Source of the DNA: Prolixibacteraceae bacterium
Lineage (GTDB): Bacteria > Bacteroidota > Bacteroidia > Bacteroidales > Prolixibacteraceae
Direction of reading: 5' to 3'
DNA length: 64,000 nt
Assembly (NCBI GenBank): GCA_021740385.1
Contig: JAIOZY010000005.1
Location: forward strand, 62,001 to 126,000
Shown here one piece after another: positions 3,788-61,698 of this stretch (its first letter is position 1; each line of letters starts with the position of its first letter). Under the pieces are notes generated by a model that had not been told where the DNA came from, searched no databases, and saw only the letters and a list, made by a program, of their open reading frames with translations. The translations under genes and the position numbers were made by a program.

Positions 3788-4513
3788 ATGATAACACTTA
3801 AAAATCTTCACAAATCGTATTTTACTGCATCGAACAGCCTTCATGTACTAAAGGGCATTTCCCTTGATATCCACCAAGGGGAATTTGTTTCTGTTATGGG
3901 CTCATCGGGTTCGGGAAAATCAACCCTCCTGAACATATTGGGCATTCTCGACTCGTATGACAAGGGAAGCTATCACCTTGACGGAAAACTGATTCAGAAC
4001 ATGAGCGAAAAAAATGCAGCAAAATACCGCAACGAAACACTGGGTTTCATTTTTCAGTCGTTTAACCTTATCTCGTTTAAAAACGCCATGGAAAATGTAG
4101 CGCTGCCACTTTACTACCAGGGAGTATCGCGTAAAAAACGCAACGTTACAGCACTTGAATACCTCGACAAGCTGGGGCTGCTGGAATGGGCCGAACACAT
4201 GCCCAACGAATTATCGGGCGGGCAAAAACAGCGTGTAGCCATTGCCCGTGCATTAATCTCGAAACCGAAAGTAATACTGGCCGATGAGCCTACGGGAGCA
4301 CTCGACACTCAAACATCGTATGAAGTAATGGAAATACTGAAAGAAATTAACCAGGAAGGTATAACCATTATTATCGTTACCCACGAACATGATATTGCAG
4401 CCATGACTGACAAAATCATCAAACTGCGCGACGGGGTAATTGGCGACTTAATCATAAACGGTGATTTGGCCTCGTTCAAAAAAAGTTATGCTAAAAACGT
4501 TGCAACACTTTAA
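3788..4513 (+). CDS. MacB/LolD-type ABC transporter ATP-binding protein
   Basis: A 241-residue ATPase with all nucleotide-binding motifs: Walker A GSSGSGKST (about residues 38-46), Q-loop FQSFNLI, signature LSGGQKQR, Walker B VILADEPTG and the switch His in VTHEHD. Motif spacing and length match the MacB/LolD group, which couples ATP hydrolysis to mechanotransmission across the inner membrane rather than classical translocation. It begins a five-gene plus-strand operon; its stop is 3 bp before the first permease. The natural partners are the two permeases, the adaptor and the TolC-like channel downstream. The substrate (drug, peptide or lipid) cannot be deduced. Confidence 0.93.
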   Translation: MITLKNLHKSYFTASNSLHVLKGISLDIHQGEFVSVMGSSGSGKSTLLNILGILDSYDKGSYHLDGKLIQNMSEKNAAKYRNETLGFIFQSFNLISFKNAMENVALPLYYQGVSRKKRNVTALEYLDKLGLLEWAEHMPNELSGGQKQRVAIARALISKPKVILADEPTGALDTQTSYEVMEILKEINQEGITIIIVTHEHDIAAMTDKIIKLRDGVIGDLIINGDLASFKKSYAKNVATL

Positions 4514-18678: not shown

Positions 18679-19593
18679 TTAAAAATAGAGCCAATATGCG
18701 TTGAATTTTCCCTGACTGTTAATTTCGAGGGCCGGAAAAGGCACTTTTACAAAGTTTAGCACTTCGAAAAATCCTTTCAGGAATTTTGAATTGGTTGGTA
18801 TTTTTTGCCAGTCGATATCGAGCGACAACAAAAACTGGCGTGTCCGTTGTACCTCGGGCAGGCGATACCCCCGGTAATAAGCCCGGTTTTCAAATTCGCC
18901 CAACATGCCGTCGGCACTATAACCAACTGCAATATTAACCCAGGGAGGCAGCACATCTTTCAGAAAAAGCCGGTTGGCATTGAACGAAAACCAGTGGCTG
19001 TGGCTGTTGTAATCGTAAAAAAAATTTTCAAATGCATTTTCGCCCAGGTAACCATAAGCATTCTTCGACAATTCAGACGGATAAAAGCTTATTTTATGCC
19101 TGATAACCTGTTCGTCGAAAAGAGCCTCCTGCCCAATAAGGAAAAGGCTGCCAGCAGCATTGGCGGCTATATCGCCCCACGAGAATCCCCATCCCTCGTA
19201 CAACCCGTCGAAGACCTCAATGGGGGCCTGCATTAAAAACCCCATTGTTCCACCGTATATTAAAGCCTTTGTTTTATCAACCCCCGCTTTCCGAAGCCAT
19301 TTGTAGGCAACATAACTTTCACCGTATGATGCAAACATGTGCCCCATTTTATCCATTTGCAAATACCCGCTGTTATCGTTATAAAAGTGAAAGGGTACCC
19401 GGTCGTGATCGGCATACCAGATAAAGGATAAAAACGACAAGCCCCCGGCATAAACAGCGCTTTCGGTAATAATTGCCGATGCCAGCATTTTTCTGTTTAC
19501 AACCGGCTTTAAATGAAGGCTGTCTGGCATGTTTTGGGTAAATGCAACCTTTAAACAAAGTAAGAGAATGCTAATGAATGCTATTCGTTTCAT
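18679..19593 (-). CDS. DUF2279-family exported protein (second tandem copy)
   Basis: 304 residues from the ATG at 19593, with a signal peptide (MKRIAFISILLLCLKVAFTQ). The conserved body contains ESAVYAGGLSFLSFIWYAD, RVPFHFYNDNSGYLQMDKMG, GFLMQAPIEVFDGLYEGWGF and a C-terminal RTRQFLLSLDIDWQKIPTN. Family members are predicted periplasmic or outer-membrane proteins of unknown function common in Bacteroidota; the alternating polar/hydrophobic segments and terminal WLYF suit a membrane-associated protein. It starts 4 bp after the stop of its close paralogue, so the two are surely co-transcribed. Confidence 0.82.
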   Translation of the reverse strand: MKRIAFISILLLCLKVAFTQNMPDSLHLKPVVNRKMLASAIITESAVYAGGLSFLSFIWYADHDRVPFHFYNDNSGYLQMDKMGHMFASYGESYVAYKWLRKAGVDKTKALIYGGTMGFLMQAPIEVFDGLYEGWGFSWGDIAANAAGSLFLIGQEALFDEQVIRHKISFYPSELSKNAYGYLGENAFENFFYDYNSHSHWFSFNANRLFLKDVLPPWVNIAVGYSADGMLGEFENRAYYRGYRLPEVQRTRQFLLSLDIDWQKIPTNSKFLKGFFEVLNFVKVPFPALEINSQGKFNAYWLYF

Positions 19594-19597
19594 GGTA

Positions 19598-20509
19598 TTA
19601 AAAGTATAACCAATAAGCGCCAAATTCACCTTTCGAGTTGATTTCAATCGCCGGAAAGGGGATTTTTATAATGTTCAACCCCTCGAACAACACTTTTAAA
19701 AAACCGGAGTTCGTTGGAATTTTTGTCCAGTCGATATCGAGCGAGACCAAAAACTGGCGTGTACGGTCGAATTGAGGGATGGGCAAATTGTTGTATTCCA
19801 ATTTGTTTTCAAATTCGCCAATCATGCCATTGGCGCTATATCCTACTGCAATATTCAGCCATGGCGGCAAATTCGATTTGGGGAACATACTTGAAAGGTT
19901 TCCCGAAAGCCAGTAGGTATGGCCGTTGTAGTCTTTCGACATGCTTTCTAAAAAGTTGCTGCCGAGGTAGCCATGAGCCAGATCGGCATAGGGAGAACGC
20001 CAAAAACTGAATTTCATTTTTACAATTTGCTCGTCGAAAAGAAGTTCCTGCCCCGCCATCAGTGCAATGCCGGCTGTATTGGCCACCATGTCGCCCCACG
20101 AGAAGCCCCAACCCTCGTTAAACCCGTCGGCAATTTCGATGGGAGCCTGCATGGCAAAGCCCACGGCACTGCCGATAATCAGCGAAGTGCTTTTCGACAA
20201 ACCCGTCGACCGAAACCACTTGTAGGTTATCCAGCTTTCGACATAAGCCGTTGTGGCATGACCGCATTTGTCAATTTGAAGGTACCCGCTGTTGTCGTTG
20301 TAAAAATGGAAAGGTACGGGGGCACGGTCTTCGTACCAAATACTGGTAAGGTAGTACATGCCTGCACCGTACACTACCGATTCAGTTACAATAGCCGTTG
20401 CAAGGCGTTTTTTGTTAACTCCTGTTGATGTCTTTGTAGAGTCAGGTGTTTCAGCTTTTGCACAGCATAAAAGAGCTGAAAGAATAGCAAACAAAATAAT
20501 CTTTTTCAT
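19598..20509 (-). CDS. DUF2279-family exported protein (first tandem copy)
   Basis: 303 residues from the ATG at 20509 (MKKIILFAILSALLCCAKAE, signal peptide). Landmarks shared with the next gene: VPFHFYNDNSGYLQIDKCGH, GFAMQAPIEIADGFNEGWGF, LNIAVGYSANGMIGEFENK, RTRQFLVSLDIDWTKIPTNS and the same ending AYWLYF. The reading frame stays open to an ATG at 20575, whose first two bases overlap the stop of a 15-codon leader ORF in a repeat, so a 22-residue N-terminal extension cannot be excluded, but the signal peptide favours 20509. Function unknown. Confidence 0.82.
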   Translation of the reverse strand: MKKIILFAILSALLCCAKAETPDSTKTSTGVNKKRLATAIVTESVVYGAGMYYLTSIWYEDRAPVPFHFYNDNSGYLQIDKCGHATTAYVESWITYKWFRSTGLSKSTSLIIGSAVGFAMQAPIEIADGFNEGWGFSWGDMVANTAGIALMAGQELLFDEQIVKMKFSFWRSPYADLAHGYLGSNFLESMSKDYNGHTYWLSGNLSSMFPKSNLPPWLNIAVGYSANGMIGEFENKLEYNNLPIPQFDRTRQFLVSLDIDWTKIPTNSGFLKVLFEGLNIIKIPFPAIEINSKGEFGAYWLYF

Positions 20510-20622
20510 TCGTCTTATACTTTCATTTTCAATGATGACTCTTAGCTTACCCCGATTTTTCGGGGTAATTCGCATTAGTCATTGGCGTTTGTGATCCCCA
20601 GCCTGCGGATCATACGTTTCAT
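20510..20622 (-). repeat. Modular palindromic leader repeat, copy A
   Basis: 113 bp ending at the DUF2279 start codon. Read on the minus strand it begins ATGAAACG, contains ATCACA and AATGACTAATGCGA, and ends AGACGA before ATGAAA. Its second slot holds a perfect hairpin, TTACCCCGA/TCGGGGTAA (20547-20568, 4-nt loop). A 15-codon ORF, MKRMIRRLGITNAND (20575-20622), lies at its 5' end. It aligns with copies at 21732-21824, 21825-21919 and 50714-50844. Confidence 0.75.
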
Positions 20623-20696
20623 CCGTTCAAATTAGCAATTTATTTTGAATCCGGTAATTGAAAATGCAATAATTATTTCATATGATTAAAGTGTTA

Positions 20697-20757
20697 AATT
20701 TATAAGGTCCGCCAGCTGGCGGATGGAACTTCTCCCGCTAAAGCGGGATCGTTTCAC
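20697..20757 (-). repeat. Modular palindromic leader repeat, degenerate copy E
   Basis: On the minus strand it reads GTGAAACGA, then the hairpin TCCCGCT-TTAGCGGGA (20733-20748), GAAGTTCCA, the palindrome TCCGCCAGCTGGCGGA (20708-20723) and CCTTATAAA. Order and spacing match the other copies but the central ATCACA block is missing. It starts at the stop codon of the epimerase gene. Confidence 0.6.
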
Positions 20758-21731
20758 ATAAGCATTTTTTGTTCCTTCATCCAGATTATTGCATCACTCA
20801 CCGCTTTGTCTATTTGTGTTTCCGGCATTTTCAATTCAGCCACGGCTTTCTTGTTTGTATAATAATCGAGGCTTGACAAGATACGTGCATTATTTACCGA
20901 CAATTCGGAATGCACACCCATTTTCCGCAACATTGAACCAAAAGCGCCCATGCCAACCAATAACCATTGGGGAATAATAACCGGGCAGGTTTTCATGCCC
21001 CTTCGCACAATTTTTAAAAACTGCCGGTATGTGAGGTTTACGCCGGCTAAAAGGTAGCGCTCGCCAGGTGTGCCGAGTTCAATGGCATTGCAAATAGCTG
21101 CAGCCGCTGCCCTTACATCAACAAAGTTTTTACCTCCTTTAGGAATGAAAATCACTTTACGCGGGTACATCATTTTAAGTATGCGGCCCGAACTGGGTTT
21201 AGCATCGTAGGGCCCGATCATGAAAGTAGGATTCACAATTACAGCATCCAGTCCCCTGGTTTTCACCATACCGGCAATCATTTTTTCTGCCTCGAGCTTG
21301 CTGAGGGCATACCCCGAATTACGAAAAAGTTTTCCCAACGGGTTCCCTTCATGCCCCGGGTTTTCCAGCGTCCCAAAATCGATGGTATTTCCGGTGCTGA
21401 CAAATATAAACCGCTTAACAGAATGCTTTATACAAGCTTCGGCTAAATAGCGGGTTGCCTCAACATTTACTTTACGGAGCGGGCCTGCTGTGTCGAAACG
21501 TTGCGAAGTGTCAGCTGCTGCATGAATAACAACATCGCAACCTTTTACGGCCTTGTCAACATCGCCCGGATCGGTAATGTTCCCCTTAAAAAAATCGGCA
21601 GAGACACCATCAAGTGATCTCAGGTCGGCGTTTTTCCGTACCAATCCCCTCACGTTGTTTCCCCGTTTGATGAGTTCCCTCACTACATTTGCGGCTAAAA
21701 AGCCGTTGGCACCGGTAACCAATACTTTCAT
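20754..21731 (-). CDS. NAD(P)-dependent epimerase/dehydratase (extended SDR)
   Basis: 325 residues. The N-terminus MKVLVTGANGFLAANVVREL carries the extended-SDR nucleotide motif TGxxGFLA. CDVVIHAAADTS follows, then the Tyr-x-x-x-Lys catalytic pair in SGYALSKLEAEKM and NPTFMIGPYD. These features place it with NAD-dependent epimerases, dihydroflavonol reductase-like and 3-beta-hydroxysteroid-dehydrogenase-like enzymes; the sequence alone does not decide the substrate. It sits among three classical SDR genes and two DUF2279 genes on one strand. Two tandem repeat units lie directly upstream, the last ending at its start codon. Confidence 0.88.
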   Translation of the reverse strand: MKVLVTGANGFLAANVVRELIKRGNNVRGLVRKNADLRSLDGVSADFFKGNITDPGDVDKAVKGCDVVIHAAADTSQRFDTAGPLRKVNVEATRYLAEACIKHSVKRFIFVSTGNTIDFGTLENPGHEGNPLGKLFRNSGYALSKLEAEKMIAGMVKTRGLDAVIVNPTFMIGPYDAKPSSGRILKMMYPRKVIFIPKGGKNFVDVRAAAAAICNAIELGTPGERYLLAGVNLTYRQFLKIVRRGMKTCPVIIPQWLLVGMGAFGSMLRKMGVHSELSVNNARILSSLDYYTNKKAVAELKMPETQIDKAVSDAIIWMKEQKMLM

Positions 21732-21824
21732 TCGTCTAAATTTATTATTTTCAAAGGTGACTCATGGAACTCGCATTTAGTCATTCACGGTTGTGATTAA
21801 AGCCGCTAACCATGCTCGTTTCAT
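21732..21824 (-). repeat. Modular palindromic leader repeat, copy B
   Basis: 93 bp ending at the epimerase ATG. Minus strand: ATGAAACGAGCATG, slot 1 without palindrome, ATCACAACCG, AATGACTAAATGCGAG, slot 2 without palindrome, CACCTTTGAAAAT and TTTAGACGA before the gene's ATGAAA. It encodes a 15-codon ORF, MKRAWLAALITTVND. It is the simplest copy and probably closest to the empty unit. Confidence 0.75.
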
Positions 21825-21919
21825 TCGTTCAAATTGTATATTTATTAAGGTAACACATGTAACTCGCTTTTTTCAAGGGCGGGTGTGATCCGCCAGCTGG
21901 CGGACCATGCTCGTTTCAT
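21825..21919 (-). repeat. Modular palindromic leader repeat, copy C (tandem with B)
   Basis: 95 bp head-to-tail with copy B. Minus strand: ATGAAACGAGCATGG, slot 1 filled by the perfect palindrome TCCGCCAGCTGGCGGA (21889-21904), ATCACACCCG, AGCGAGTTAC, and TTTGAACGA at the junction with the next ATGAAACG. Its ORF runs 24 codons. It begins 3 bp after the stop of the SDR gene. Confidence 0.75.
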
Positions 21920-31598: not shown

Positions 31599-33155
31599 TC
31601 AATTCAATGCCCCAAAATTAGTTGTTGTAATGGAATCCATTTCTGCAATGGTCATGCTATTTCCTGCTTCAGCCATTAAGGTTTTCAATCTCGATTTCAA
31701 ATCTTCAATTATATCATTGTATTTGGGGTTGTCTATGGCATTGTTCAATTCTTCCGGATCGGCTTTCAAATCATAAAATTCCCAAATGTCCTGGTTATGA
31801 TAGAAGTGTATTAGTTTATAGCGCTTTGTCCGAATACCGTAATGCGGATGAACATGATGCCAGAAAGGAAATTCGTAGTAATGGTAATACATGGCATCGG
31901 GCCAGTCGGCCGGCTTGTTCCCGGTCAGATTTGGCAGGAAGCTCCTGCCCTGCACATTTTCCGGCACCTCAACTCCGGCAATATCGAGCAATGTGGGAGC
32001 AAAATCGATATTTGTAATCATATCTTCGTTTTGCGTATTTTCAGCCACTTTTCCGGGATATTTCATAAGGAAAGGCATTCTCAACGATTCTTCGTACATA
32101 AAGCGTTTATCAAAAAAACCATGATCGCCAAGGTAAAACCCCTGATCTGATGTATATATTGCAACAGTATTATCGGCCAACCCGTTTTCGTCAAGGTAAT
32201 CGAGCACCCGGCCAATGTTGTCGTCAACCGACCGGACACAAGCGAGATAATCTTTTATGTATTTTTGGTATTTCCATTCACGGGCCTCCCGTTGGGTCAT
32301 TCCCGGCTCGGGAAGCCAGGCTTCTCCCCGGTTGTTGCCATAATTTTCCCATCTCCTGAGCTCTTCGCCTTCGAGGCCTTCAGGCGGGGTGCGTTTCATA
32401 TCTTTCCGATTCAGAAAATCCATGGTCATATCGGTATCACCTGCCGTATTTTCGCGACCTGTATAATCATCGTTGAAAGTATCGGGGTATAGAAAGTCTG
32501 TATTTTCCCATATATCAACATACTGCGAATCGGGGAACCAGTTCCGGTGAGGCGCTTTGTATTGTAACAACATGCAAAAGGGCTTTTCCTTATTCCTGAT
32601 TGAATTGAGCCAATTTATGGCAAAATTGGTTGTGAGATTTGTACAATAACCTTTTTCAACCACTTGTTTGCCATTTTCGTTGTAAACTGGATTCCAGTAT
32701 GTACCTTGCTGCCCTTTGTTGTTGTGATATTTAAAAAAATTAAAACCAACGGGTTCCGAGCCAAGGTGCCATTTCCCAAACATGCTTGTTTCATATCCGT
32801 TTTTTTGAAGCTCTTCGGGGAAAGTCCACTGGGATGAATCAAATTTACCACCTCCTTCGTTTTTGTAATAGCCGTTAACGTGGCTGTATTTGCCTGTTAA
32901 AATGCATGCCCTGCTTGGCCCGCAAATGGCATTTGTGCAAAAAACGTTGTTAAACGTTATCCCTCCGGCGGCCAACCTGTCGATATTTGGTGTAGGGGCC
33001 AGCTCATCATAAATGCCACCATAAGCGCTAATGGCGTGGGAAGCATGGTCGTCACTCATTATAAAAATGATGTTTGGCTTTTTATCTTCTTTTGTTTGCA
33101 GCGAAGAACACGATGAAATCAACAATACCAGGACTGAAAGGAGCAGAAGTCGCAT
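31599..33155 (-). CDS. Sulfatase lipoprotein (arylsulfatase/GlcNAc-6-sulfatase-like)
   Basis: 518 residues. The signal peptide ends in a lipobox (LLISSC). The active-site motif CGPSRACILTG has Cys78 for formylglycine conversion; metal-site residues are in IIFIMSDDHASH and YTSDQGFYLGDHG, the latter typical of N-acetylglucosamine-6-sulfatase relatives. The C-terminal YRTKRYKLIHFY-type segment is conserved in this subgroup (here IRTKRYKLIHFYHNQ). It precedes the other sulfatase by 56 bp on the same strand, and the two are only distantly similar, so they likely remove different sulfate groups from one glycan. Confidence 0.9.
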   Translation of the reverse strand: MRLLLLSVLVLLISSCSSLQTKEDKKPNIIFIMSDDHASHAISAYGGIYDELAPTPNIDRLAAGGITFNNVFCTNAICGPSRACILTGKYSHVNGYYKNEGGGKFDSSQWTFPEELQKNGYETSMFGKWHLGSEPVGFNFFKYHNNKGQQGTYWNPVYNENGKQVVEKGYCTNLTTNFAINWLNSIRNKEKPFCMLLQYKAPHRNWFPDSQYVDIWENTDFLYPDTFNDDYTGRENTAGDTDMTMDFLNRKDMKRTPPEGLEGEELRRWENYGNNRGEAWLPEPGMTQREAREWKYQKYIKDYLACVRSVDDNIGRVLDYLDENGLADNTVAIYTSDQGFYLGDHGFFDKRFMYEESLRMPFLMKYPGKVAENTQNEDMITNIDFAPTLLDIAGVEVPENVQGRSFLPNLTGNKPADWPDAMYYHYYEFPFWHHVHPHYGIRTKRYKLIHFYHNQDIWEFYDLKADPEELNNAIDNPKYNDIIEDLKSRLKTLMAEAGNSMTIAEMDSITTTNFGALN

Positions 33156-49330: not shown

Positions 49331-50713
49331 TTAAAAAGTCAGTATTCCAAGGCCGTTCAAAAACACCAGCGCGATGGCCAGCGGTGCCAGAAATTTAATA
49401 ATGAAACGGTAAATGGCGTAATAACCGATTTTGTATTTACCGTTTGATGATAATTCGTTTTTTAACTTGTCCTTACCAAACAACCAGGCAACAAAAAAAA
49501 CAATGAGCAACCCGCCCAATGGCAATAAAATATTCGATGAAACATACTCAAGCACCCCAAAAAGGTTGGTATTTCCTATTGAAATTTCGGGCACCTTGTA
49601 TAACGACAAGCTGCAAAGTATCCCCAACAGGGCAATTCCGGCCGAAGCCAGCAAAGTAGCAGCTTTACGGCTCATTTTTAATTCTTCGGAAAAATAAGCC
49701 ACAACCACTTCAAGTATAGAAATTGTTGATGTTAGCGCCGCAACAACCAGCAGAAAGAAAAAAAGCAGGCCAAAAATAAAACCGCCGCCCATGCGGGCAA
49801 AAATATTTGGAAGTGTAAGGAAAACCAAATCGGGGCCTGAAGCAGGACTGATACCGAAAGCAAATACCGCCGGAAAAATAGCCACACCTGCCAGTATGGC
49901 AATGAGTGTATCGGCAAAAACAACCGAAGTAGCTGATGAACCCAGGTTTTCGTTCCTTTTCATGTATGAACCGTATGTAATGAGTGTGCCCATTCCAATG
50001 CTTAACGAAAAAAACGCCTGCCCCAAGGCAATTAAAATGGTTGACGGCCCAATTTTCGAGAAATCGGGGTTAAAAAGGAACTTTAACCCTTCGGCCGAAT
50101 TGGGCAGTGTTACCGAACGCACACACAATATTACAATGAGTACCAGCAAAACAGGCATTAAAATTTTGGTGTACTTTTCAATTCCTTTTTGAACGCCGGC
50201 CAGGACAACACTAGCCGAAACAGCCACAAAAACCAAAAGCCAAAAAACAGGCCTCCAGGCAGAACCCTGAAAATTTGTAAAAAGCGCCGTAATCTCTCCG
50301 GTGTTTTTCCCGCTAAACTGGTTGGTTATTGCATTAACAAGATATTCGAGTGTCCAACCGGCCACAACGCTGTAAAAGGCATTGATCATAAATGCTGCTG
50401 CAATTCCCATTATACCTATAAGGAACCATTTGCTGCCGGGTTTCAGTTTTCTGAAAGCCCCAAAGGGATTACGTTGGGTCGACCGACCGATAACAAGCTC
50501 GGAAAGCATTACGGGCAAACCAATTATCACAATAAAAGCCAGGTATATAAGCAAAAAAGCCCCGCCCCCGTTTTCTCCGGTTATATAGGGAAACCTCCAG
50601 ATATTCCCAAGCCCCACAGCCGAACCGGCTGTGGCAGCGATAAAACCAAATTTACTTCCAAATGAATCCCTGGGCTGACTGCCCTTGTTATTAATTTGCG
50701 ACACTGTTTTCAT
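49331..50713 (-). CDS. Na+-dependent transporter of the SNF family
   Basis: 460 residues from the ATG at 50713 (MKTVSQINNKGSQPRD); the frame opens at 50737 but that part is repeat-flanked leader. Hallmark of neurotransmitter:sodium symporters: FGFIAATAGSAVGLGNIWRF with the unwound helix 1, then GGGAFLLIYL. About 11-12 membrane helices. Bacterial members (LeuT, MhsT types) import amino acids with Na+. Together with the Na+-pumping decarboxylase at 26083-29592 it fits a cell using sodium gradients. Its leader is repeat copy D. Confidence 0.92.
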   Translation of the reverse strand: MKTVSQINNKGSQPRDSFGSKFGFIAATAGSAVGLGNIWRFPYITGENGGGAFLLIYLAFIVIIGLPVMLSELVIGRSTQRNPFGAFRKLKPGSKWFLIGIMGIAAAFMINAFYSVVAGWTLEYLVNAITNQFSGKNTGEITALFTNFQGSAWRPVFWLLVFVAVSASVVLAGVQKGIEKYTKILMPVLLVLIVILCVRSVTLPNSAEGLKFLFNPDFSKIGPSTILIALGQAFFSLSIGMGTLITYGSYMKRNENLGSSATSVVFADTLIAILAGVAIFPAVFAFGISPASGPDLVFLTLPNIFARMGGGFIFGLLFFFLLVVAALTSTISILEVVVAYFSEELKMSRKAATLLASAGIALLGILCSLSLYKVPEISIGNTNLFGVLEYVSSNILLPLGGLLIVFFVAWLFGKDKLKNELSSNGKYKIGYYAIYRFIIKFLAPLAIALVFLNGLGILTF

Positions 50714-50844
50714 ACAATTATAATTGTCTGTTTTCAAAGGTCCGCCAGCTGGCGGATGGAGCCTGCCCGACTATGCTGGTCAGGCGGGCTCGCATTTATT
50801 TTTATCATCCTCCTGGATGTAAATGTCTTACATGCTCGTTTCAT
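50714..50844 (-). repeat. Modular palindromic leader repeat, copy D
   Basis: 131 bp upstream of the SNF transporter start. Minus strand: ATGAAACGAGCATG, an unrelated slot 1, AAATGCGAGC, an imperfect hairpin (GCCCGCCTGAC with GTCGGGCAGGC) plus the perfect palindrome TCCGCCAGCTGGCGGA (50741-50756) in slot 2, then CCTTTGAAAA. An ORF of 36 codons starts at its first ATG. Confidence 0.7.
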
Positions 50845-61536: not shown

Positions 61537-61587
61537 ATTAGTTCTACCAGCAAATTCCAGTTCTCCGCCAACTGGCGGATCCTGGAA
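61537..61587. repeat. 51-bp direct repeat, first copy
   Basis: It begins ATTAGTTCTACCAGCAAATT and ends in the near-palindrome TCCGCCAACTGGCGGA (61564-61579) plus TCCTGGAA. The second copy is at 61648-61698, 111 bp away, with one base change in the first 51. Confidence 0.8.
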
Positions 61588-61627
61588 ACTTTGGCCATTC
61601 TCTTTTTCATTACTGCCTCCGCTTTCT

Positions 61628-61651
61628 TAATCCCGATGTTCATCGGGATTA
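61628..61651. repeat. Perfect palindrome within the direct-repeat block
   Basis: TAATCCCGATG (61628-61638), TT, CATCGGGATTA (61641-61651). The same core AATCCCGAT occurs in the rplL-rpoB hairpin at 41797-41822. Confidence 0.75.
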
Positions 61652-61698
61652 GTTCGACCAGCAAATTCCAGTTCTCCGCCAACTGGCGGATCCTGGAA
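61648..61698. repeat. 51-bp direct repeat, second copy
   Basis: It repeats 61537-61587, including the near-palindrome TCCGCCAACTGGCGGA (61675-61690). Its central palindrome is the AC-variant of TCCGCCAGCTGGCGGA in the leader repeats at 20-22 kb and 50.7 kb. Confidence 0.8.

Follow-up and report, generated by a model that had tools for sequence, protein, structure and literature searches.

Among mobile elements that act on folded DNA, those of the IS200/IS605 group have folded ends, a fixed short target beside the left end and a pairing between guide and cleavage sequences (PMC6006769). Section 13 of the same source describes a subclass of Y1 transposases, 2.6, found mostly in Bacteroidetes and bordered by "atypical secondary structures" that recur at other places in the genome. 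CGTC repeats, also from Bacteroidetes, have no known dedicated transposase (PMC3733652), and modular short repeats located near or in genes have been reported under the names BOX and RUP (PMC3049150) and RPE (PMC3733652). The TAACTGA repeats of Beggiatoaceae, which occur in five Bacteroidetes too, lie a few nucleotides upstream of the start codons of unrelated genes (PMC4679880). Finally, Bacteroidetes are described as devoid of Shine-Dalgarno signals, structure near the start codon tuning initiation and AUG being under-represented beside it (PMC6847099; PMC3155529).

Here, we describe a repeat family found in a 64,000-nucleotide stretch of DNA from a Prolixibacteraceae bacterium (contig JAIOZY010000005.1, positions 62,001 to 126,000; hereafter, the window). 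Comparison between copies and between genomes reveals the family, its boundaries, its empty sites and two covarying hairpins. We consider it likely that these repeats are small non-autonomous mobile elements, inserted in one orientation at ATGAA, mostly at gene starts, and that resident copies are retained there as structured 5' leaders acting on translation; the action of the leader on translation is what we infer from modelled structures.

Anatomy and folding of the element

Copies A, B, C and E, read directly from the sequence, are present on the minus strand as the original prediction had described them, and belong to one repeat family. A covariance model built from 26 aligned copies, these four included, recovers them all and adds a previously unnoticed fifth copy in the window (Table 1). 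Some details had to be amended: copy E is longer than first thought and, while A and B do end at the ATG of a gene as claimed, C ends at copy B instead. Next to copy A, positions 18679-20509 hold two adjacent paralogous genes (DNA stretches 73-83% identical), and the copy is found only at the start of the upstream one.

Table 1. Features of the repeat family in the window (positions are those of the window)
Feature	Position	Strand	Remarks
Copy B	21726-21824	-	ends at ATGAAA of gene 20754-21731; best model match in the genome
Copy C	21819-21919	-	tandem, upstream of B, ATGAAA common to both; TCCGCCAGCTGGCGGA in slot 1
Copy A	20504-20622	-	ends at ATGAAA of gene 19598-20509; TTACCCCGA/TCGGGGTAA in slot 2; weak model match (E 0.0098)
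Copy E	20676-20757	-	left end GTGAAACGA; palindrome in each slot; past the end of gene 20754-21731; opens no gene
Fifth copy	50708-50844	-	long slots; precedes 460-aa ORF 49331-50713
Left end of B, ATGAAACGAGC	21814-21824	-	contains ATGAAAC, 5' strand of hairpin P1
GTTCCAT of B	21764-21770	-	3' strand of hairpin P1
GAGTC of B	21759-21763	-	5' strand of hairpin P2
GACGA of B	21732-21736	-	3' strand of hairpin P2; abuts the gene's ATG
325-aa ORF MKVLVTGANGF...	20754-21731	-	starts at right end of B; NAD-dependent epimerase-like by eye
303-aa ORF MKKIILFAILS...	19598-20509	-	starts at right end of A

In the whole draft genome (G000, 4.89 Mb), the model gives 93 matches at E ≤ 1, 92 of which were extracted, and copy B used as a DNA query gives 49 matches at E ≤ 10. 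Within the window, ATGAAACGAGCATG occurs four times with at most two mismatches against 0.42 expected, a number reached in none of 100 shuffles; the occurrence at 32781 is not retrieved by the covariance model. A chance or local duplication would account for the C-B tandem and for a tandem triplet in genome G082 with two identical units, but it is next to impossible: copies occur genome- and family-wide with fixed common boundaries, and most tandem neighbours differ. The original prediction had named in advance what would point to such a duplication (copies absent elsewhere, random positions, no shared boundary), and the opposite was found on all three counts.

Copies of this genome are 66 to 160 bp long, typically about 90 bp net, and follow a constant order: the left end ATGAAACGA, slot 1, a middle block (G)CGAGTTCCAT, either slot 2 or a short stem strand, then an A/T-rich loop of about 20 nt and a triplet nnn abutting ATGAA. 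The common boundaries are the same left end and nnn-ATGAA on the right. Terminal inverted repeats, the hallmark of MITEs, were not seen in the alignment: the left end ATGAAACGAGC has no inverted counterpart in the right end nnn-ATGAA. ATGAA is present on both sides; in C52 and L383, the gene starts with ATGAAT and the left end still reads ATGAAACG (ATGAAAC), so that what is duplicated is ATGAA at most, unless it is a shared core.

The slots may hold REP-like palindromes (TCCGCCAGCTGGCGGA, TCCCGC..GCGGGA, CCCCGA..TCGGGG), detected by pattern in slot 2 of 23 of the 92 copies and in slot 1 of 35. The slot contents first described stand for TCCGCCAGCTGGCGGA in C, for TTACCCCGA/TCGGGGTAA in A and for both palindromes of E, but slot 1 of B is not empty: a weak hairpin, GGTTA..TAATC, can be seen there by eye. 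Copies with palindromes in both slots recur, and therefore spread as such; no slot swap was seen between orthologues. That the element accepts palindrome insertions into its slots, another part of the original prediction, is thus something that we infer from the copies. There are three exact occurrences of TCCGCCAGCTGGCGGA in elements of the window and two with one mismatch outside of them, at 61564 and 61675. Positions 61537-61698 contain a 51-nt sequence twice, 111 nt apart and 98% identical, each with the palindrome TCCGCCAACTGGCGGA; the REP-like palindrome therefore also exists outside the element.

Covariation supports two hairpins, P1 and P2 (all shuffles mentioned below ignore the relatedness of copies). 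In P1, ATGAAAC and GTTCCAT form a stem in which one A.C mismatch is usual; it is followed by CGAG facing CGAG (tandem G.A) and by a slot stem. Across 105 copies, the outermost pair of the slot stem is G-C in 88 and C-G in 6, and its third pair is A-T in 64 and C-G in 14; four of the six positions covary clearly above all 1000 shuffles, position 4 narrowly so and position 2 not. The pair formed by base 7 of the left end is C:G in 240 of 249 copies, T:A in 4, T:G in 3 and another combination in 2.

In P2, the three bases that follow CCAT are paired with the three that precede the ATG of the gene. The two triplets are exact complements in 156 of 232 distinct copies, with 13 different triplets, and Watson-Crick pairs amount to 82% at position 1, 80% at position 2 and 87% at position 3, vs. 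33%, 41% and 55% after shuffling. This set brings together 38 copies from the genome studied (those kept by the strict pattern), 29 from the family, 127 from the class and 39 from genomes G081/G082 and relatives, one being shared; 11 copies without ATGAA 24-45 nt after CCAT were dropped. Where a P2 strand begins with GA, GA lies opposite in 17 of 20 copies. A second count, with 87 complementary copies out of 129, is not independent because complementarity was used to choose the right end. The first alignment gave 19 double-change cells vs. 7.0 (s.d. 1.9), as high in 0 of 500 shuffles, and two of its five measures were unremarkable: double-change pairs (5 vs. 3.3; 67/500 shuffles as high) and further pair types (14 vs. 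12.7; 117/500). At isolated non-Watson-Crick positions, G.U is found 28 times and A.C 11 times (20 to 4 in P1, 8 to 7 in P2), a mild hint that the fold exists in the sense RNA. Folding energies compared with shuffles are better in six of eight copies (z -2.8 to -4.5), B (z 0.02) and C (z -0.86) being the two others.

As CCAT belongs to both P1 and P2, the left ATGAAAC and the gene's ATG would compete for a single strand. The internal strand GTTCCAT-NNN-AT is also the reverse complement of the two joined ends (AT-nnn-ATG-AAAC), with one usual mismatch. One can imagine from this a start-codon homing element of a new kind, excised as a folded single-stranded circle (DNA or RNA) whose guide would pair with its own junction and with the target ATG, integrating thereby, the same pairing later becoming a translational switch in the leader; we regard this as unlikely.

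Empty sites, distribution and Y1 transposases

In order to find empty sites, flanks were joined without the element and searched for in relatives. At locus L105 (genome G056, genus g10), the element is absent from the site in all five genomes fetched, with 85 to 98% identity over 300 bp, and the junction of the empty counterpart L201 is base-perfect; L107 lay outside the flank query owing to its TTG left end. Among the groups compared, only L105 and L094 read cleanly, L097, L090 and L082 having diverged upstream flanks or starts. In the sister genomes G081 and G082, 18 copies were without a partner in the lists drawn up initially: nine are empty in the sister, three are filled and six are without a full counterpart. 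All nine empty sites are clean, eight with no base gained or lost and one with one extra base; one of these loci, L389, lies away from any gene start, its sister site reading ATAAA. Ten orthologues were considered in G001, of the same genus as our genome: two are filled in both, five lack the element in G001 (among them C18, a gene start without the element whose upstream flank is unaligned) and three (C89, C75 and C84) are too diverged to be aligned.

Insertions carry no flanking homology along, and the site lies exactly at ATGAA. These filled and empty alleles support an element that moves, gain being told from loss only where several relatives lack it. The mobile element and the leader regulator, proposed at first as alternatives, both fit as two sides of the same object, mobility resting on the empty sites and the probable leader role on position and orientation, on covariation beside the start codon and on the conservation of shared copies. 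In three pairs of loci (L354/L391, L377/L397 and L383/L399), the filled and the empty allele have different bases at one to three positions immediately 5' of the target ATG, the remaining flank being nearly identical. Tandem neighbours are mostly unlike one another, the 18 parsed pairs showing 0.54 to 0.88 identity (understated in a few where the second unit is cut short). Locus L404 (G082:C2:3265714-3266028) is made of three tandem units, two of them identical and the third with 4 differences of 109.

According to our preferred reading, insertion would take place in a single orientation at ATGAA, mostly where this is the start codon of a gene; the element would bring its own ATGAAACGA and end with a triplet abutting the host's ATGAA. 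The gene would keep its start codon, because the element ends directly before that ATGAA. Judging from the folded ends, single-strand (HUH-type) processing could be what moves it, although this is a guess.

The covariance model finds at least one match in 123 of 140 family genomes at E ≤ 0.01 (with at most 28 candidates scored in each genome, so that counts per genome are floors), in 35 of 295 genomes of a class sample at E ≤ 0.001 and in 9 of 296 genomes of a phylum sample at E ≤ 1e-4, the genome studied being included in both samples; three of these nine are outside the class, one of them with nine matches. A wider scan gave at least 119 matching stretches; among the matches listed are Marinilabilia, Anaerophaga, Thermophagus, Draconibacterium, Sunxiuqinia, Maribellus, Labilibacter, a Parabacteroides, Proteiniphilum, Paludibacter and a Prevotella MAG. 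This patchy distribution fits a mobile element. The viral collection gave a single match, L350 (515-582, minus strand, of a putatively viral IMG/VR contig), with a longer second loop. We found no earlier description of the element in CC-licensed PMC papers, nor its exact 14-base left end in the text of those searched.

The empty sites, the patchy distribution and the folded ends would also suit a purely selfish hairpin element of the REP or PATE kind with no host role, moved in trans by a Y1 (HUH) transposase, starts being hit because ATGAAA is common there and intragenic insertions being purged; we hold this to be possible but doubtful. Y1_Tnp genes are present in 128 of the 140 family genomes, as such an element would have it. 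Of the 12 family genomes without them, however, six have element matches, three having five or more; no Y1_Tnp gene was found in G128 (at least 28 element matches), G127 (6) and G067 (5), which are drafts of 70 to 91% completeness, and G022 and G097 are among the genomes with Y1 genes and no element match. The Bacteroidetes-type Y1 protein of contig C105 has no match in G082, though this genome has 58 element matches and five other Y1 matches. Contig C105 itself (L065, L127) holds an intact YIHQNP-type Y1 transposase, several similar gene fragments and an element copy at 3817-3901.

Element ends were also looked for by eye about 100 to 500 bp on each side of the Y1 matches of the genome studied: none were present at the five inspected of the six (the sixth lies on C48), and the one gene of Y1 subclass 2.6 inspected, in L065, is not flanked by the element. 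The Y1 genes of this genome were therefore rejected as autonomous partners, Y1 presence not strictly tracking copies. A scan of the collected loci for split elements with gaps of up to 3.5 kb revealed no larger or gene-bearing copy; its six entries, from five places, are all short copies with a changed left end.

Position at genes, conservation and predicted effect on the start codon

In this genome, 67 of the 92 copies have at their right end the ATG of an ORF that is 100 aa or longer (60 aa or longer if it runs off the stretch), and four more precede a second tandem copy. The window contains 112 ATGAAA sites, 15 at starts, 14 intergenic and 83 inside genes according to crude gene calls; with so many of them inside genes, target sequence and loss of intragenic insertions explain much of the start bias, which is a further point in favour of the selfish element. 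An excess at starts beyond these two effects is only suggested (67 to 21 vs. 15 to 14). The downstream genes are, by eye, unrelated to each other. In L223, the element lies directly 5' of a 38-aa ORF resembling, by eye, ribosomal protein L36, so even a short ORF downstream may be a real gene.

The left ATG opens a short ORF beginning with MKR, originally reported in every full copy: its 15, 15 and 24 codons in A, B and C are as described, but only 2 codons are opened in E. Since this ATG inherits the original upstream region of the host gene and most copies have the M-K-R ORF, a translated leader peptide controlling the gene by attenuation might come to mind. The ORF, however, is 2 to 41 codons long in 85 of the 92 copies and longer in 7, and its sequence follows the filling of the slot, which makes an attenuator very improbable and gives no support to a coding role, in agreement with the doubt already voiced in the original prediction. 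The same ATG is an annotation hazard, as it opens a false MKR ORF.

Copies common to the two sister genomes are probably maintained in place. In 16 copies from 14 loci filled in both sisters, changed sites number 9/512 in paired blocks (taken as the left end, the middle block and the two strands of P2); the slots and loop have 57/993, and the 100 bp upstream 123/1593 (Fisher: blocks vs. slots and loop, P 1.7e-4; blocks vs. flank, P 9e-8; slots and loop vs. flank, P 0.057). The 16 copies were placed by model coordinates, a motif-based placing giving 13 with three loci dropped; 11 of the 14 loci come from the top-20 lists of both genomes and three from flanks, a choice that favours well-kept copies, and the flank search met no decayed copy among 12 resolved loci. 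Gene conversion of the blocks only seems unlikely, because the slots lying between them differ. Conserved paired blocks beside drifting slots and loop are our reason for regarding resident copies as structured 5' leaders that are retained, and they weigh against a purely selfish element.

The copies are thus placed as a cis-regulatory leader would be, in sense orientation before start codons (67/92) and kept in place, as far as a choice favouring well-kept copies can tell. Together with covariation and with the excess of G.U (28) over A.C (11), this would agree with a genuine class of cis-regulatory RNA, a ligand- or protein-binding leader copied between genes by recombination and not by transposition. 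We find this quite improbable, given that insertions sit exactly at ATGAA without flanking homology, that the downstream genes look unrelated, and that Rfam offers no match: none over the element in the window at gathering score and, at E ≤ 1 over five loci, two hits of chance level, both away from the element.

Coming back to the mobile element kept as a leader, P2 (CAT-NNN-AT with AT-nnn-ATG) would bury the gene's ATG, and P1 would use the same CAT for the ATGAAAC of the left end, two ATGs competing for one anti-start strand; a REP-like palindrome replacing the 5' strand of P2 would remove the block on the gene's ATG. Folding predictions were made for eight G081/G082 pairs (L389, which opens no gene, being outside this comparison): the gene's ATG has a mean unpaired probability of 0.14 when the element is present, which becomes 0.57 on removing the element; the value is 0.40 for the empty allele of the sister. 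For the 67 copies before ORFs in the genome studied, predicted accessibility does not change (0.38 with vs. 0.40 without the element). When P2 is intact, the predicted unpaired probability of the ATG falls from 0.35 without the element to 0.14 with it, 17 of 19 copies showing a decrease (Wilcoxon P 0.001); with a REP-like palindrome in slot 2, the predicted values are 0.49 vs. 0.40 (17 copies, P 0.16), and for the other copies 0.47 vs. 0.43 (31 copies, P 0.54). Hence the prediction that only copies with an intact P2 hide the start codon of the gene. P2 is not needed for spread, since 23 of the 92 copies have lost it to a palindrome and yet form a recurrent type. Considering that AUG is under-represented near Bacteroidetes starts, extra AUGs and a hairpin at the start codon make this element an oddity.

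Meaning and comparison with known systems

Most mobile elements damage the gene that they enter, whereas this one appears to enter where the gene survives, leaving its start codon; the inserted element would supply a folded leader, the paired blocks of which stay conserved afterwards. With tens of copies in many genomes, it would repeatedly provide bacteria devoid of Shine-Dalgarno signals with new 5' leaders, and the polymorphisms between sister genomes are ready-made pairs with and without the element.

How does it compare with what has been described? REP/REPIN sequences and their RAYT (TnpA-REP) are alike in being short, hairpin-forming, mobile, partly transcribed and present in high copy number, and the slot palindromes are REP-like; the present element differs by its location at start codons and by aligned copies with no GTAG at the foot of the hairpin, and no inspected Y1 gene is flanked by element ends as for RAYT (five of six in the genome studied). 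The structures flanking the Y1 genes of subclass 2.6 may overlap the present element, on the basis of their text description only. CGTC and GTAG palindromes are also different: they are single stem-loops of 20-40 bp, and CGTC turns up in the present element solely on the strand opposite to the right end in some copies (GACG in TTTAGACGA).

HEARO, or IscB-associated RNA elements, integrate next to ATGA or GTGA, and are larger, with an ORF; the present element is smaller and without an Rfam match, and nothing on point about such a link was found in CC-licensed PMC literature. To our knowledge, none of BOX, RUP, RPE and similar repeats abuts start codons precisely. TAACTGA repeats are heptamer arrays of a different sequence, and the parts of that study consulted contain no empty-site evidence. 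The PATEs derived from IS200/IS605 share with the element folded ends, seen here through covariation, and a fixed target, ATGAA, read at empty sites; they differ in that here the pairing strand is internal, lies beyond the first hairpin on its 3' side and is shared by the two ends, and no tnpA-bearing relative was found among the loci scanned.
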